From positions 62,001 through 126,000 of the forward strand of contig NZ_AWNH01000053.1 in assembly GCF_000482245.1 (NCBI RefSeq): a stretch of DNA of 64,000 bases. The letters run 5' to 3'. This document shows, one piece after another, positions 1 to 63,907 of this stretch; position 1 is the stretch's first letter, and every line of letters begins with the position of its first letter. The notes beneath the pieces are model-generated. The model made no database searches and was not told where the DNA came from. It worked only from the letters and a program-made list of their open reading frames with translations. The DNA is from Leptolyngbya sp. Heron Island J (GTDB lineage Bacteria; Cyanobacteriota; Cyanobacteriia; Phormidesmidales; Phormidesmidaceae). The position numbers were made by a program, and so were the translations under genes.

Positions 1-279
1 TTATTGGTGGGCTGTACGGGTGCCTGGCTGATGCAATGGCCCCTGTGGTGGATTACAGGATCGGCTTTTGGCACCATGATTGGGGTGGCCAGTCTGCTGG
101 GAGATCTCACCGAATCCCTGATGAAGCGCGATGCTGGCGTTAAAGATTCAGGTACTCTAATTCCTGGCCACGGCGGCATTTTAGACCGTACCGATAGCTA
201 CATTTTTACCGCACCGCTGGTGTTTTACTTCATCACCATGCTGTTACCCAGCCTACCGGGTATTTGGCCAGGGAATTAG
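1..279 (+). CDS. cdsA: Phosphatidate cytidylyltransferase, C-terminal end (5' truncated by window)
   Basis: The frame is open from the first base and ends at 279, so only about the last 92 residues are present. CdsA makes CDP-diacylglycerol from CTP and phosphatidic acid in the cytoplasmic membrane. The fragment carries the CDP-transferase family signature: a KRD...KDSG segment, then PGHGGILDR and D (about residues 41-64 of the fragment), followed by a last hydrophobic helix. The signature contains the metal-binding aspartates expected near the C-terminus, so this end looks complete. The gene is convergent with the DUF2993 gene, 8 bases away. Confidence 0.93.
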
Positions 280-57489: not shown

Positions 57490-59298
57490 TCAGCTCCAAA
57501 ATTCATCTAGATCGACTTCGGCAACTTCTTGCTGGACTTCCTGAAAGTAGCTGCTAGCAGTCAGGGTGGCGACTTCTTCTTGCCGTTGCTGTTGATCGAT
57601 TTCAATTTTTAGCTCGGCCAGCTGGCGTTTTAGCTCGTCTTCGCGTCGCTTGCGTTCGGTAATGTCCTGGACAATACCCTCGTAGTAGAGCACCTGCCCC
57701 TGGGAAGAACGAACGGCACGGGCATGGATTTGGGTCCAGATAATCTTGCCGTCTTTGCAGTAACACTGGTATTGAAACCCGGTAACGCTGTCTTGCTGGT
57801 CGATTTTTGATTGAAAGTCCGCCCGCCTTGCTGGATCCACATACAGCTGTGAACCAATATCGGTAATGCTATCAATCATTTCCTGGGGAGAGTCATAGCC
57901 ATAGAGCCTGGCTAGGGCCGGGTTGACATTGATAAAATGGCCTTCGGGGCTAGATTGGAAGATGCCCTCCAGGGCATTTTCAAAGATGCTGCGGTAGTTT
58001 TCCTCGGCAATGCGGATAGTCTCAAAGGACTGCTTCAGCTGCCGGGTCATTTTGTTAAATGAGTTGGCCAGGGTATCAATTTCGGCAATAAAACTGGACT
58101 TCACCTGCGGGTCTAGATGGCCTTGGGCCAAGCGATCGGAGGCTTGAGATAGCCGTAGAAGCGAACGAGTGATTCGACGGGCCGTCAGCACGCTTAAGGC
58201 AATGGCAACCAGCAGCGCTAGCCCACATAGCAGGATGGTATTGCGGGTGTTGGCATTAATCTGGCCCATAAAATCGGCCTCGGGCACAACGACCACAATG
58301 AGCCAATCGAGACCAAACCCATCTTGAAACGGCAGTACTTCTAAAAATTGGCGTTTACCGTTGAGCTGTAGCTGTAGCTGCTGAGCTTCGGTAAAATTCG
58401 TAAACCCATTGAATCGCTGGGCCAGATAACGAGCCGTATTTTGGACTAGCTGATCGCTGCTGTTGATGGCTAGCAGGGGGGTGGCAGTATCCCCATCGTT
58501 AACCATCAGGGGTTCATCGGTCGAGTTGGAAATCAGCTGCCCCTGGCGATCGATCACAAAGGCTTGCCCGGTTTGGCCGATTTGTAGGCTTTGCAAAAAG
58601 GTTCTAAATTCTTCTGGGAGCACCACATCCGTTGCACATACCCCTAGAACATCTTTACCGGAGCGATCATACACGGGGAGGCTGGCAGTAATATTGGGTA
58701 GCCCAGTGGTAAAGGCAATGTAGATATCTGTCCACTGGGGCCGCTCAGCCAAGGCTGCCGCTTTATACCAGGGCCGTTGGCGAGAATCATAGGGCGTCTC
58801 TGCCTGCCATAGAAAGCTGGTGCGTTCTCCCCGGACATCTAAGCTGTAATATCGGCGCAGATTTTGGGTAGAAGGATTGCTGTAAGTAAGCTGCAGCGCA
58901 CCATTCTCAGGCGATCGCAACACTCCAAAAAATTCGCCATTGCGGGCGCTACCGCAGTAAGCCAGGGCAATGGTGGGGGCAATCCGCATCTGCTGATAGA
59001 GCTGGGTTTCACCAAAGCCCGCGCCGTCTACATCCAGTATGCCTCTGGCAAAGGCGCTGGCGTTGAGTCGATTGATCTCGTGGGGGGTTTCAAAATAGCT
59101 CTGTAGTTCTTGTTCAATCCGGGCTGTGACCTCATGACGTAGTTGGATAGCCAGCTCATTCACAGCCTTTTGACCATTGCGAAAGGATAGATAGCCTACT
59201 AGACCAACGGCCCCGACAATTTGGCCAACAAACAACACAATCAAGACCACTCGTAGGGGCAGATTGTCAGGTGACTGCAGACGAACGGGTAGTTTCAT
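57490..59298 (-). CDS. dCache-HAMP-PAS protein with a conserved C-terminal tail, no output domain
   Basis: 602 residues. Membrane helix (about 15-37), dCache sensor (about 60-340), second helix (about 350-372), HAMP-like segment, coiled coil, PAS domain (about 425-550; YRSIFENALEGIFQSSPEG, YEGIVQDITERKRR), then a coiled coil (REDELKRQLAELKIEIDQQQ) and the tail SSYFQEVQQEVAEVDLDEFW. No kinase, cyclase or methyl-accepting domain follows, so output must come through the tail or a partner. It lies 7 bases downstream of glsA; the tail recurs in the mini-protein at 61478-61858. Confidence 0.88.
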   Translation of the reverse strand: MKLPVRLQSPDNLPLRVVLIVLFVGQIVGAVGLVGYLSFRNGQKAVNELAIQLRHEVTARIEQELQSYFETPHEINRLNASAFARGILDVDGAGFGETQLYQQMRIAPTIALAYCGSARNGEFFGVLRSPENGALQLTYSNPSTQNLRRYYSLDVRGERTSFLWQAETPYDSRQRPWYKAAALAERPQWTDIYIAFTTGLPNITASLPVYDRSGKDVLGVCATDVVLPEEFRTFLQSLQIGQTGQAFVIDRQGQLISNSTDEPLMVNDGDTATPLLAINSSDQLVQNTARYLAQRFNGFTNFTEAQQLQLQLNGKRQFLEVLPFQDGFGLDWLIVVVVPEADFMGQINANTRNTILLCGLALLVAIALSVLTARRITRSLLRLSQASDRLAQGHLDPQVKSSFIAEIDTLANSFNKMTRQLKQSFETIRIAEENYRSIFENALEGIFQSSPEGHFINVNPALARLYGYDSPQEMIDSITDIGSQLYVDPARRADFQSKIDQQDSVTGFQYQCYCKDGKIIWTQIHARAVRSSQGQVLYYEGIVQDITERKRREDELKRQLAELKIEIDQQQRQEEVATLTASSYFQEVQQEVAEVDLDEFWS

Positions 59299-59305
59299 CA
59301 GTTAT

Positions 59306-60334
59306 CTACCAGCTATCCACATCGTTGCCATCAATCCAGGCTTGTAGCTCTCGCTCAGGTTTAGCCGCATTAAAGAGATGTAGCCCAAAATCTGTGGCCA
59401 GAGTCTCACAAACTTTGATGCCCCGAACGCTGTTACCCTTGGCATCGAGCGGTGGGGAAAAGGTACCAATGCCCAACTTGCCAGGAACCACGGCTAAAAT
59501 GCCACCACCCACACCACTTTTGGCCGGCATACCCACTCGATAAGCCCATTCGCCGGAGGCATCGTACATGCCGCAGGTGAGCATCACGCTCACCACATCC
59601 TGCACATAGCGTTCATCAATAGCGCGTTCTTGGGTGATGGGGTTGATGCCGCCATTGGCCAAGGTGGCGGACATCATAGCCAAATCACGGGCATTGACCA
59701 GGATCGAGCACTGCTGAAAGTAAAGATCCAGGGTTTCGTCAATTTTGTCGCCCACCATGCCAAAGTTCAGCATCAGGTAAGACATAGCTCGGTTACGGTA
59801 GCCGGTAGCCTTTTCGGATAAAAAGACAGGGACATTAATGTCGTGTTCTCGGCCGGTGTAGCGCTTAAACATATTCAGCATGCGCTTGAGCCGTTCGGTG
59901 CTACTGCTGCCTTTGATCAGATCTGTGGTTGCGATCGCACCCGCATTCACCATCGGGTTATAGGGGCGATTGGTCGCCTCGTCCAGCACAATAGCATTAA
60001 AGGCTTCCCCAGTCGGCTCCACACTCACCTTGCTGTTGACATAGTCACGACCATGATCTTCTAGAGCCAATCCAAAAACAAAGGCTTTGGAAATCGACTG
60101 AATCGTAAACAGCTGGTCACACTCCCCCACTTCAAACACCTGACCATCTTGAGTGACCACACAAATACCAAACCATTCAGGCTTGGCCAGCGCCAGTTCA
60201 GGAATATAGTCAGCCACAGCACCGTCGTTAATGGCTTGAAACCTCTCGTGCAGCTCAGTCAAATAGTTACGAAACGGGGAGGTGACTGCCGTGATTGAAC
60301 TGGCCAGAGACTGTAGATCTCCGATATCTGACAT
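59306..60334 (-). CDS. glsA: Glutaminase A
   Basis: 342 residues of the Ser-Lys glutaminase family, which hydrolyses glutamine to glutamate and ammonia. The catalytic dyad is in [10 protein letters not shown] (Ser80, Lys83), with Tyr43 in YIPEL, and the binding motifs NPMVNAGAI and [14 protein letters not shown]. Length fits the short bacterial enzymes. It lies between the MinD-like gene (5 bases upstream) and the PAS gene (7 bases downstream), a very tight operon. Confidence 0.95.
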
Positions 60335-60339
60335 CCTGG

Positions 60340-61098
60340 CTAACCCCCTACAATTTGCTGGGCGACTTTACGAAATTCTTGACTGACTGGATGCTCGGGA
60401 TATTTGACACAAAACACCCCTTCACTCGCCAGCTGCACAATATCCTCAGATAGAGGAAACAGACCCGCTACGGTTTCACCGTAGGTTTCCTCCACTTTCT
60501 GCTTGAGGGCATCCATATTCAAGCTGCTGTAAACCTTATTGATCGCCAAGAGCATTTTGCGAACCTTGAGCTGTCGGGCCACATCTACAGTCACCGCCGT
60601 GCCCTGATAGTCCTGTTTATCGGGACGCAGGATCAAGATCAGTACGTGGGATATGGCGATCGATAAAAAGGTTTCTTTGGATAGCCCTGGGTGGGTGTCA
60701 ATGAATAGATAGTCAAGTTTTAGCGCCTTGACCAAGTTACGAAAGCCATCGTTCATCAGCCTGACATCGTAACCATCCTTGAGGATGCGGGCAATATCAT
60801 CGGCCCTGACACTAGAAGGAACCAAGTAAAGCTTGCCATCGTCAGCCACACCCAACTTTTCACCCACATCATAGACGGCGTCTTCAATAGAAGTTTCCCC
60901 CCAAAGATAATTATTCAGAGTTTTGTGGGTGTGCTCAGGTTCTAGACCAAATAGGTTATGAATACCAGGGGAAGGCACATCAGTATCTACAACACCGACG
61001 CGATTACCCTGGAGGGCGATAGTGGTCGCTAAATTAGCAGTAAAGTTGGATTTACCAGTACCGCCTCGATAAGAATGTACCGAAACAACTTTGGGCAT
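60340..61098 (-). CDS. ParA/MinD-like ATPase
   Basis: 252 residues. The deviant Walker A is [11 protein letters not shown] (conserved signature lysine followed by Ser instead of Thr), with [29 protein letters not shown] and [15 protein letters not shown]. Such ATPases position proteins or protein clusters on membranes or nucleoids. The frame extends to a TTG at 61128, but family members begin near ATG 61098 (MPKVVSVHS). It is the first gene of the MinD-like/glutaminase/PAS operon; a positioning role for this complex is an inference. Confidence 0.88.
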
Positions 61099-61444
61099 AC
61101 CTGGGAAATTATGGTGGAAGCTTTTCAAGAAAATACCAGATATAAATCTGCTATCAAAGAAAATGCCAAATTCCTTAGTAAAGAGCCTACTTAACTCATG
61201 TTAATTACCCATGACCTCAGCAGCCCCACCAGCGGAAGCTAGTGTGGTCTCACCTGCGGGCAGCAGCAATCACCTCCATAGCATCGCCCCAAGGAGTGCA
61301 GTCTTCTCAGCTACTAAACAACATCTGCTTCTTTAGAACCATTACAAAGTCGGAAAAGTCGGATAGCCTACCAGGCCGCCAAAACCTCCTCAGCTGTACC
61401 AGACAAAACGCCTGGGATCTTCTATAATCCTTGCGCAAAGTGAA
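61099..61444. other. Divergent intergenic region, nothing firm
   Basis: Between the MinD-like operon and the rightward mini-protein gene. It contains stretches that could be gene relics (for example DCTPWGDAMEVIAAARR on the minus strand), but none is supported. Confidence 0.35.
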
Positions 61445-61477
61445 ATGTATAGCTGTCATCTTGGGCACAGCACTTTA

Positions 61478-61858
61478 ATGACTAGTAGAGCCTATCGGAC
61501 ACTGCGCAAATTCCGGTTGCGTACAACTCTAGTAATTCCATTTGTGTTACAAATCATGGGAGCGGTTGGCGTTGTCGGATTTATCTCCTTTCAGACTGGC
61601 CGTAGCACCGTGAATGATCTAGCCAGTCAGCCTGTAAAAGATAGCAATGGTGATTTACTGTACTACGAGGGCATTGTTCAAGATATTACCGATCGCAAAC
61701 GCCGGGAAGATGAACTCAAACGACAGTTAAAAGAGTTAAAAATTGAAATTGACCAGAAAAAACGAGAAGATGAAGTAGCGACGCTAACAACAAGCTCTTA
61801 TTTCCAGGAAGTTCAGCAAGAAATATCAGAAGTGAATCTGGATGAATTTTGGAACTAA
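61478..61858 (+). CDS. Internally deleted mini-paralogue of the dCache-PAS protein
   Basis: About 126 residues. It begins with the N-terminal helix of the 602-residue PAS protein (RTTLVIPFVLQIMGAVGVVG) and, at DLASQ, jumps to the end of a PAS-PAC domain (YYEGIVQDITDRKRREDELK), the coiled coil and the tail SSYFQEVQQEISEVNLDEFW. About 480 residues of the paralogue are missing, in frame. It keeps a membrane anchor plus the shared tail. ATG 61445 is another start; 61478 is preferred as it matches the paralogue's N-terminus. Confidence 0.7.
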   Translation: MTSRAYRTLRKFRLRTTLVIPFVLQIMGAVGVVGFISFQTGRSTVNDLASQPVKDSNGDLLYYEGIVQDITDRKRREDELKRQLKELKIEIDQKKREDEVATLTTSSYFQEVQQEISEVNLDEFWN

Positions 61859-61897: not shown

Positions 61898-63907
61898 CTA
61901 TGGATTTCCCGAAGCTCCTCCTGATTGCTTTAGTGCTGTTGCAACTTCTTCATGTCCATGACGAATAGCATCGTCTAAGGGAGTAAACCCCCAGCGATCT
62001 TGAATATTTGGATTAACGTTGTTAGCAAGCAGAAATTTAACTACCTTAAGCTGACCTTCTGCAGCCGCTAGATGAATTGCTGTACGGCCATCGTAGTCAG
62101 CCGCCTCCATAGAAACACCGCGAGCGATATAGGGTAGCATTGCGTTGAGTTTACCTTGGCTGGCAGCCCAAATCATTGCTGTAATATCGGTAGTCACAGA
62201 GCTGGGAAGATTGATATTGGTTTGAGGATAAGAATCTTGACCTTTTTGAGCTCCGGCTGCTTGCAGAATAGTGACTACAGCCGCATGACCTTGCTGCTCA
62301 GCATCATTAAGCGGTGTGCAGCCCCAGCGATCGCAAACATTGACATCCACCCCGTGATCTAGCAAAAATGCCACCACATTCTTATGACCACCTGCAGCAG
62401 CCAGGTGCAAAGGGGTACGATTATCGTAGTCACCTGCATTGAGATTAGCCCCACGAATCTGATATTGCGTAATGGCCGTCAGATCGCCTCGGCTAGCCAC
62501 CTCTATCAAACTCGTAATCTCTTCTGATTCTCTCTGAATTGGACTAATGCGAGGGTTCTTTTTCTCTGATTGGAAATCAAGATTATCGTAATTGTGAACA
62601 CTAAACTTTTTGACTAGCTGCTTACAAAATTCGACACCGCGAACACTGTTACCCTGAGAATCGAGCTTGGGTGACCAGATGCATAAACCGAGCACATTTG
62701 GAATCACCACCATGACCGCACCAGAGACTCCAGACTTGGCCGGAAGACCCACCATAAAGGCCCACTCCCCACTGTAGTCATACATACCGCAAGAATACAT
62801 AAGTGAGAGACAATGCTGTATCGTACTGGTCTTAAAAATCTTCTCTCCTGTGACAGGACAGGTGCCACCGTTAGCCATAGTGGCAGCAACAACCGACATT
62901 TGATCCGTATTTAGTTCAATCGAACAGGATTGAAAATAAAATTCTAATGTCTCTTCGAGTTCAGCCCAAGCTGGAAATGCCTTCTTTTCCATCATGTAGT
63001 GGCTGAGGGCACGATTACGATGGGCCGTCTCACGTTCTGAAAGATAGACGGCATTGTTAAAGGTAATGCGGTCATTACCGGTTAGGCGACTCCAGTGATT
63101 GAGCACATAGTCGAAGCGATCTGCATGATCAAGATCATGACGAATGAGGGAACAACACATAATTGCCCCAGCATTGATCATGGGATTGTGGGGTAAGCCC
63201 TGGCTATTCAAAGTAAGCTCATTAAATCCCAATCCCGATGGTTCACGCCCCACATGCTGATGAACTTTATCTGTGCCCAATTCTTCTAATGCAAGACAAT
63301 ATGCGATAGTCTTGCTCGTGCTTTGCACCGTAAAATTTTCAAGAGTATTACCACGGGCGTAGCGTTGGCCATCAATCGTACAGATAGAAACGGCATAATG
63401 GCGTTCATCTACCCTAGCTAACTGTGGAATGTAGTTAGCTAGAGTGCCACCATCGTGGCTACTGCCATTCTCATAGATAGTGTCAATGTCTCGACAAAAA
63501 TCCTGAAAATCAGGAATCACTAACTGAGCTTTGAGAACGCGGCGGATGAGGTGAATATTGGGTCGAATAATTTTTTGAAAGCTAGGAAAATCAATCTCAG
63601 AATCACTGCGAGGACAGAGAAACTCTAATTCTTGTAAGCTTTCAGAAAAGCGCCGATCCGTCAGTTTGAGACCAGCACGGACAAAAGCCGACAGAAACTC
63701 TTCGCGAGTAATCATACCGTTACCGTCGAGATCGGCAGCTTGAAATAGCCTTAAATCCTGTTCGTCTACGGCTGTAGCGCCAGGAGTTTTACCTTTTGAA
63801 GGCAAAGATTGCGTTTTTGTAGAGCGCAATGATTTTGAGCTAAGATTGACAGTCTCTTCAATGGGCTTTTTAAGGAATTTAGCACTACTTTTTGTCTTCT
63901 TTTCCAT
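61898..63907 (-). CDS. Glutaminase with N-terminal EF-hand and C-terminal ankyrin repeats
   Basis: 669 residues. A canonical EF-hand loop (DLDGNGMITREE, 59-70) lies in a ~90-residue helical N-terminal domain. The glutaminase domain (about 125-460) keeps the dyad in NFTVQSTSKT (Ser196, Lys199), NPMINAGAI and PAKSGVSGAVM. The C-terminus has two similar ankyrin blocks (RTPLHLAAAGGHKNVVAFLL and RTAIHLAAEEG-like, each followed by a DRWG..PL unit). This EF-hand/glutaminase/ankyrin order is that of animal kidney-type glutaminases. It is convergent with the mini-paralogue of the PAS protein. Confidence 0.88.
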   Translation of the reverse strand: MEKKTKSSAKFLKKPIEETVNLSSKSLRSTKTQSLPSKGKTPGATAVDEQDLRLFQAADLDGNGMITREEFLSAFVRAGLKLTDRRFSESLQELEFLCPRSDSEIDFPSFQKIIRPNIHLIRRVLKAQLVIPDFQDFCRDIDTIYENGSSHDGGTLANYIPQLARVDERHYAVSICTIDGQRYARGNTLENFTVQSTSKTIAYCLALEELGTDKVHQHVGREPSGLGFNELTLNSQGLPHNPMINAGAIMCCSLIRHDLDHADRFDYVLNHWSRLTGNDRITFNNAVYLSERETAHRNRALSHYMMEKKAFPAWAELEETLEFYFQSCSIELNTDQMSVVAATMANGGTCPVTGEKIFKTSTIQHCLSLMYSCGMYDYSGEWAFMVGLPAKSGVSGAVMVVIPNVLGLCIWSPKLDSQGNSVRGVEFCKQLVKKFSVHNYDNLDFQSEKKNPRISPIQRESEEITSLIEVASRGDLTAITQYQIRGANLNAGDYDNRTPLHLAAAGGHKNVVAFLLDHGVDVNVCDRWGCTPLNDAEQQGHAAVVTILQAAGAQKGQDSYPQTNINLPSSVTTDITAMIWAASQGKLNAMLPYIARGVSMEAADYDGRTAIHLAAAEGQLKVVKFLLANNVNPNIQDRWGFTPLDDAIRHGHEEVATALKQSGGASGNP

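Follow-up and report, generated by a model that had tools for sequence, protein, structure and literature searches.

Close to one edge of the window, by which we mean the whole 64,000-nucleotide stretch of Leptolyngbya sp. Heron Island J DNA that was analysed, lies a gene whose 669-residue product joins an EF-hand domain, a glutaminase domain and two blocks of ankyrin repeats (Table 1). We refer to this gene and its product as EF-GLS. Upstream of the gene the window extends for only 93 more bases. Past its edge, the contig holds genes for an MscS channel with a cNMP-binding domain, for a dCache-type receptor that contains a class III cyclase domain, and for an ammonium transporter. All members of the cluster lie on the same strand, separated by gaps of approximately 50-110 bases, and the order ammonium transporter, cyclase-like receptor, MscS-cNMP channel and, in last place, EF-GLS is conserved in this genome (G000), in Leptolyngbya sp. 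SIOISBB (L045) and in a Halomicronema MAG (L046). No glutamine synthetase gene was seen within the flanks of the cyanobacterial EF-GLS cluster. The receptor and channel genes (L129:5002-8751, just outside the window) also occur as a pair in some twelve genomes of the order that lack EF-GLS beside it.

A preliminary description of this DNA placed the gene beside a simple glutaminase operon. This is true of the present genome, but the operon was not found in the flanks of EF-GLS in L045 or L046. The synteny of the simple glutaminase and ParA-like genes is also found in a second genome of the same genus (G002), which holds the transporter, cyclase and MscS cluster as well and lacks EF-GLS. The slot that EF-GLS would occupy in that genome (L154:3606-5204) carries a gene of 532 residues whose sequence looks like that of a flavin amine oxidase and may include a TAT-like signal, and a Pfam-confirmed amine oxidase gene lies directly downstream of EF-GLS in L045. 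It looks, then, as though the transporter is accompanied in turn by different enzymes that may free ammonia from amino acids. Adjoining EF-GLS on the opposite strand, an open reading frame of 137 residues (61445-61858, plus strand) resembles the two ends of a PAS/HAMP sensor encoded at 57490-59298 (55% over 38 residues and 69% over 86 residues) but lacks its central part, and appears to be a truncated duplicate of the sensor gene.

Table 1. Features of EF-GLS and of the neighbouring simple glutaminase operon (positions in the window; residues in EF-GLS numbering).
Feature	Position	Strand	Basis and remarks
EF-hand / glutaminase / double-ankyrin gene, complete	61898..63907	minus	One intact ORF, 669 aa; Pfam; phmmer; AlphaFold2 model
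N-terminal extension, residues 1-45	63773..63907	minus	Ser/Thr/Lys-rich; predicted disordered, pLDDT ~30
EF-hand pair domain, residues 48-131	63515..63766	minus	Pfam EF-hand_14; model
EF hand 1, helices 49-58 and 68-77; degenerate hand 2, helices 85-97 and 107-125			AlphaFold2 model
Canonical 12-residue calcium loop, residues 59-70	63698..63733	minus	DLDGNGMITREE (D59 to E70)
Glutaminase catalytic domain, residues 154-440	62588..63448	minus	Pfam, 373 bits
Active site: Ser196, Lys199, Tyr159, Asn245, Glu291, Asn298, Tyr324, Tyr376, Val394			Human S286, K289, Y249, N335, E381, N388, Y414, Y466, V484
GLS-type linker, residues 441-464	62516..62587	minus	DNLDFQSEKKNPR...; unbroken alignment to human GLS1/GLS2 (human DNL...KLDPR)
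Ankyrin block 1, residues 465-555	62243..62515	minus	Pfam Ank_2 at 468-555; Foldseek 8gwr_B; collinear with KGA ankyrin block
Ankyrin block 2, residues 573-665	61913..62191	minus	Pfam Ank_2; duplicate of block 1
Simple glutaminase	59306..60334	minus	Pfam, 413 bits; no EF-hand or ankyrin; separate family branch (100/100)
ParA-like ATPase of the simple glutaminase operon	60340..61128	minus	Pfam

Relationship to the animal glutaminases

Pfam matches above their own cut-offs were obtained for EF-hand_14 (residues 54-132; 30.3 bits against a cut-off of 23.7), for Glutaminase and, twice, for Ank_2. The two ankyrin blocks share 48% identity, and their identity with the human block is 42% and 46%, indicating that a GLS-type block has been duplicated, as the preliminary description proposed. 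The N-terminal extension diverges rapidly, with 23-31% identity to close relatives.

A phmmer comparison with human kidney-type glutaminase (KGA; 5uqe) produced a single collinear stretch across residues 60-550 (E 1.8e-143), spanning the EF-hand domain, the catalytic domain, the linker (HNYDNL...DPR) and the ankyrin block (DYDxRTxLHxAAAxGH...DRWGxTP). Because this alignment is unbroken and includes the linker, the shared domain order reflects end-to-end homology rather than a chance combination of domains. Structural comparisons gave a concordant picture. The AlphaFold2 model (mean pLDDT 84.9, with poor prediction limited to residues 1-45 and short loops) matched glutaminase C (3ss5) with Z 56.7 and an rmsd of 1.4 A over 389 residues, KGA (8gwr_B; Foldseek against the PDB) over 502 columns with a TMt of 0.94, and the simple glutaminase YbaS of E. 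coli (1u60) with Z 42.4. When the N-domain alone was used in a structure search, the N-domains of GLS enzymes were matched at Z ~12, followed at Z 7-8 mostly by true EF-hand proteins (CBP40, calmodulin, centrin and Bet v 4). In the model, the N-domain is a pair of EF hands, the first canonical and the second degenerate.

Animal-like architecture, which the preliminary description had read from the sequence, is therefore borne out as true homology, and its more specific claim that the domain order equals that of animal KGA holds from end to end apart from the number of ankyrin blocks, of which EF-GLS has two and KGA one. EF-GLS combines the features of the GLS/KGA type, namely a Ser-Lys glutaminase domain with a full active site, an EF-hand_14 domain, ankyrin repeats joined by the linker and the corresponding position in the tree, and as judged from sequence and model it is a bacterial member of this animal-type family. 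It shares the order of EF-hand-like bundle, glutaminase, linker and ankyrin with human and mouse KGA (GLS; 5uqe, 8gwr) and with liver-type GLS2 (8szl), and differs from them in having no mitochondrial import context and, relative to the human enzymes, in its second ankyrin block. The GLS fold and architecture are themselves already known: an EF-hand-like N-domain in human GLS is described in passages of PMC11224379 that cite Pasquali 2017, and the ankyrin repeats of glutaminases are said to be an early acquisition (PMC13142944). The simple bacterial glutaminases (E. coli YbaS, 1u60; B. subtilis YbgJ, 1mki; and the paralogue at 59306-60334) have the catalytic domain and active-site residues in common with EF-GLS but, unlike it, contain neither an EF-hand nor an ankyrin domain and belong to a distant branch.

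Catalytic, regulatory and assembly sites

All nine catalytic residues of human GLS are identical in EF-GLS (9/9), and on the strength of this identity glutamine hydrolysis by the protein is close to certain. The activation loop is altered: R317 of the human enzyme is replaced by Gly (G227), K320 by Glu (E230) and E325 by Ser. In addition, F322 is replaced by Thr. The R317/K320 pair that underlies phosphate activation is absent here. It characterises the mammalian enzymes and not the family at large, and K320 is present in just 1 of 60 bacterial ankyrin-type sequences. As the human K320A variant (K253A in GLS2) works in the absence of phosphate, EF-GLS would be expected to be independent of phosphate too.

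We also compared the seven filament-interface residues named in PMC10912226. Four are identical to human (F355, F373, N375 and Q416), and the other three are replaced (F378 by Y, Q379 by L and D412 by E). The residues of the dimer-dimer site, R387, Y394, E397 and K398, are all retained. Because four of the seven are identical and two of the other three changes are F to Y and D to E, filament formation by EF-GLS, which the preliminary description had raised, is plausible, although we would put it at a little under an even chance. The identical positions are widely kept among 60 bacterial ankyrin-type sequences (F355 in 52, F373 in 56, N375 in 51 and Q416 in 52); in essentially all of 29 simple cyanobacterial glutaminases, F355 is replaced by L, F373 by I or V, and N375 by V, I or M. 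According to a 2026 review that takes its bacterial examples from the short enzymes of B. subtilis, the filament interface is not conserved in bacterial glutaminases, and these are regulated differently from the mammalian enzymes (PMC13142944). Retention of most of the interface in GLS-type bacterial enzymes would allow the link between filaments and activity to be studied outside animals and in the absence of the human phosphate switch.

The canonical calcium-binding loop noted in the preliminary description is present: D59, D61, N63, G64, I66 and E70 occupy the six positions that characterise such a loop, within a helix-loop-helix. The loop of hand 2 (residues ~98-107) is degenerate, leaving one hand rather than two that looks competent. 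Loss of the EF hand from close homologues had been named as grounds for abandoning the idea of calcium control; instead, both closest relatives, L045 (DIDGSGTITREE) and L046 (DTDGSGTITREE), keep all ligand positions, and among the three cyanobacterial genomes the loop changes only at non-ligand positions 2 and 7 and, from N to S, at position 5. Synonymous sites between the window gene and those of L045 and L046 are near or past saturation, and the preservation of ligand character despite this argues for selection on the loop in the cyanobacterial clade.

Across the wider family the picture is different. A gap-free loop was found in 44 of 76 sequences, and suitable residues at all six positions in 4 of the 76, these being the three cyanobacterial proteins and one from a Coxiellaceae MAG (DVDNDGQIVKND). 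Most of the other loops retain D at position 1, G at position 6 and a hydrophobic residue at position 8 but have lost ligands, often with Lys at position 5. Since it is degenerate in nearly all other members, an intact loop is not needed for basic enzyme function. One intact EF hand paired with a degenerate hand can bind calcium weakly, and many EF loops are purely structural.

These observations leave one serious competitor to calcium control, namely that EF-GLS is an ordinary GLS-type glutaminase without calcium regulation, whose EF loop is a structural element or neutral relic and whose N-domain does no more than help dimers and tetramers to pack, as it does in mammals. The fold is held with a degenerate loop by most relatives and by both human enzymes, implying that the fold does not need calcium, and the degenerate state of hand 2 fits as well. 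Nevertheless, the ligand positions have been kept in three genomes over a distance at which synonymous sites approach saturation, and a neutral relic should have decayed as it has in sister lineages such as Nannocystis (DSENKSYIYRRD). We give this alternative somewhat less than even odds, and regard calcium control of EF-GLS, for its part, as a possibility that falls rather short of probable. The proposal that such control operates as in the eukaryotic enzymes does not hold, as the loop of human GLS1 and GLS2 is both shortened and degenerate and the activator described for the mammalian glutaminases is phosphate rather than calcium (PMC10912226, PMC13142944); any calcium control here would be lineage-specific. 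With an intact loop at hand, one could test whether a calcium sensor was the origin of the EF-hand-like N-domain of GLS.

Gene neighbourhood and proposed role

A profile search of fetched flanks, using a profile built from ammonium transporter hits, identified an ammonium transporter (Amt) gene beside 26 of 63 ankyrin-type GLS loci, or 22 of 48 when only loci with at least 1.5 kb on both sides were counted; as the loci were picked by similarity to the window protein, the proportions given in this paragraph are not a census. The linked transporters come from nine named phyla, and 25 of the 26 are on the same strand as the glutaminase gene, upstream in some cases and downstream in others. Glutamine synthetase genes likewise flank 26 of the 63 loci (18 GSII-like, 7 GSIII and one weaker match), with both neighbours at 21 and at least one at 31. 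In comparison, neither Amt (0/18) nor glutamine synthetase (0/18) was found at control loci of simple glutaminases, all of them cyanobacterial, and no Amt neighbour was found at 17 TerB-type GLS loci (described below). In 28 of the genomes there are 38 ammonium transporter genes, often a single one, a density at which we calculate that chance alone would link about 0.15 of 48 loci, and none of eight simple glutaminases in the same genomes is near an Amt. A signature search, which is a weak test, found no P-II gene beside the GLS-Amt pair. On the tree, at least nine changes of transporter linkage are needed, so the pairing came or went several times. Runs of adjacent glutamine synthetase, GLS-type and ammonium transporter genes on one strand can be seen in many phyla within the set L047-L089 (e.g. 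L067, L072, L077, L065, L085 and L047).

The recurring Amt and glutamine synthetase neighbourhood points to a role in ammonium cycling, and for EF-GLS a role in such cycling together with its transporter is supported by gene context. We propose that EF-GLS acts in the cytosol, probably as a tetramer, hydrolysing glutamine to glutamate and ammonia, and that, together with the ammonium transporter of its cluster, it recycles or distributes the ammonia. Less surely, hand 1 of the N-domain may bind one calcium ion and thereby set activity or assembly, a step that would be an addition or retention specific to the cyanobacterial clade, human GLS having the same fold with a dead loop. With Glu in place of K320 and Gly in place of R317, the enzyme is predicted to do without the phosphate that acts on the activation loop of human GLS, and it may still stack into filaments. 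To this explanation as a whole we assign a probability of roughly 0.62.

A different use of the neighbours would be a second-messenger circuit, in which a cyclic nucleotide made by the class III cyclase would act on the cNMP domain of the MscS channel to open it, letting in calcium that switches on the glutaminase. Conservation of the four-gene order in three genomes would fit such a circuit, yet by eye neither the cyclase nor the cNMP domain seems fit for catalysis or ligand binding of the classical kind. In the cyclase domain, VSSLEGLT stands where FADIVGFT is usual, so that the first metal aspartate is missing, and the Asn/Arg pair normally seen near WGD is missing too. In the cNMP domain, the arginine typical of the phosphate cassette is absent. 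We downgraded the circuit because of this apparent degeneracy and, with cyclase-MscS pairs also occurring without EF-GLS in other genomes, consider it very improbable.

The ammonium-cycling explanation can be extended to a bolder one, which we judge unlikely: that EF-GLS is a calcium-gated, filament-forming bacterial glutaminase, that the KGA architecture predates or is independent of animals, that the EF hand once was or still is a calcium switch, and that the enzyme had its ancestral role in a gene set of glutamine synthetase, glutaminase and ammonium channel. If this were true, the set would be a bacterial counterpart of the glutamine cycle. Relative to the literature searched, what appears new at the level of sequence is the intact calcium loop of the cyanobacterial clade, the conservation of the filament interface among bacterial GLS-type enzymes and the recurring glutamine synthetase, glutaminase and ammonium transporter neighbourhood. 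A simple microbe would offer a setting in which to test for calcium control and for filaments alike.

Distribution and phylogeny of the GLS-type family

The GLS-type family is sparse yet spread across many phyla. Our scan of the genome collection recovered 80 loci from many bacterial phyla and from one archaeal MAG, the last a possible contamination. Of 386 cyanobacterial genomes sampled from the phylum, 3 contained the EF-hand_14 domain, full-length-type matches within the host's order were restricted to this genome, G431 and G032, and additional sampling of Flavobacteriaceae yielded 3 positive genomes of 199.

The preliminary description had called for a phylogeny of the glutaminase domain with eukaryotic GLS. 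In our tree, EF-GLS grouped in a GLS-type clade that includes human GLS and is separated from the simple glutaminases by a branch with 100/100 support. Within it, the window clade joined two Planctomycetota (90/95). Human GLS fell in a polytomy when a long Synechococcus branch was left out and joined that branch when it was included, a grouping we flagged as a long-branch join; an AU test did not reject a single bacterial clade against human (p 0.267). That the gene came recently from a eukaryote, for instance via a host or symbiont, could be argued from an animal-like architecture at 43-45% identity, but is barely credible given that, once the three cyanobacterial proteins are set aside, the nearest relatives belong to bacteria (Planctomycetota, Myxococcota and Acidobacteriota, with 50-55% identity), that the window clade pairs with Planctomycetota rather than human GLS, and that the doubled ankyrin block also occurs in bacterial relatives. 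Transfer from animal to bacterium was rejected on the grounds of these closest relatives.

The bacterial relatives, though of the same family and often adjoining an ammonium transporter or glutamine synthetase gene, differ from EF-GLS in several respects. They mostly have one ankyrin block (two in Nannocystis and some Planctomycetota), their EF loop is degenerate rather than canonical, and where they have a glutamine synthetase neighbour EF-GLS has the MscS channel and cyclase-like receptor instead. The GLS-type proteins of Synechococcus and Cyanobium (the L041 and L105 group) share EF-hand_14 and glutaminase domains with EF-GLS, but have no calcium loop and carry a TerB-like C-terminus in place of ankyrin repeats, as indicated by Pfam on one member, L041. 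Most filament-interface residues are missing from these TerB-type proteins (L105-L124, L041 and L044). Finally, other cyanobacteria encode tandem double simple-glutaminase reading frames of ~650 residues (G459:C115:9608-11473, G028:C42, G009:C140 and G004:C1).
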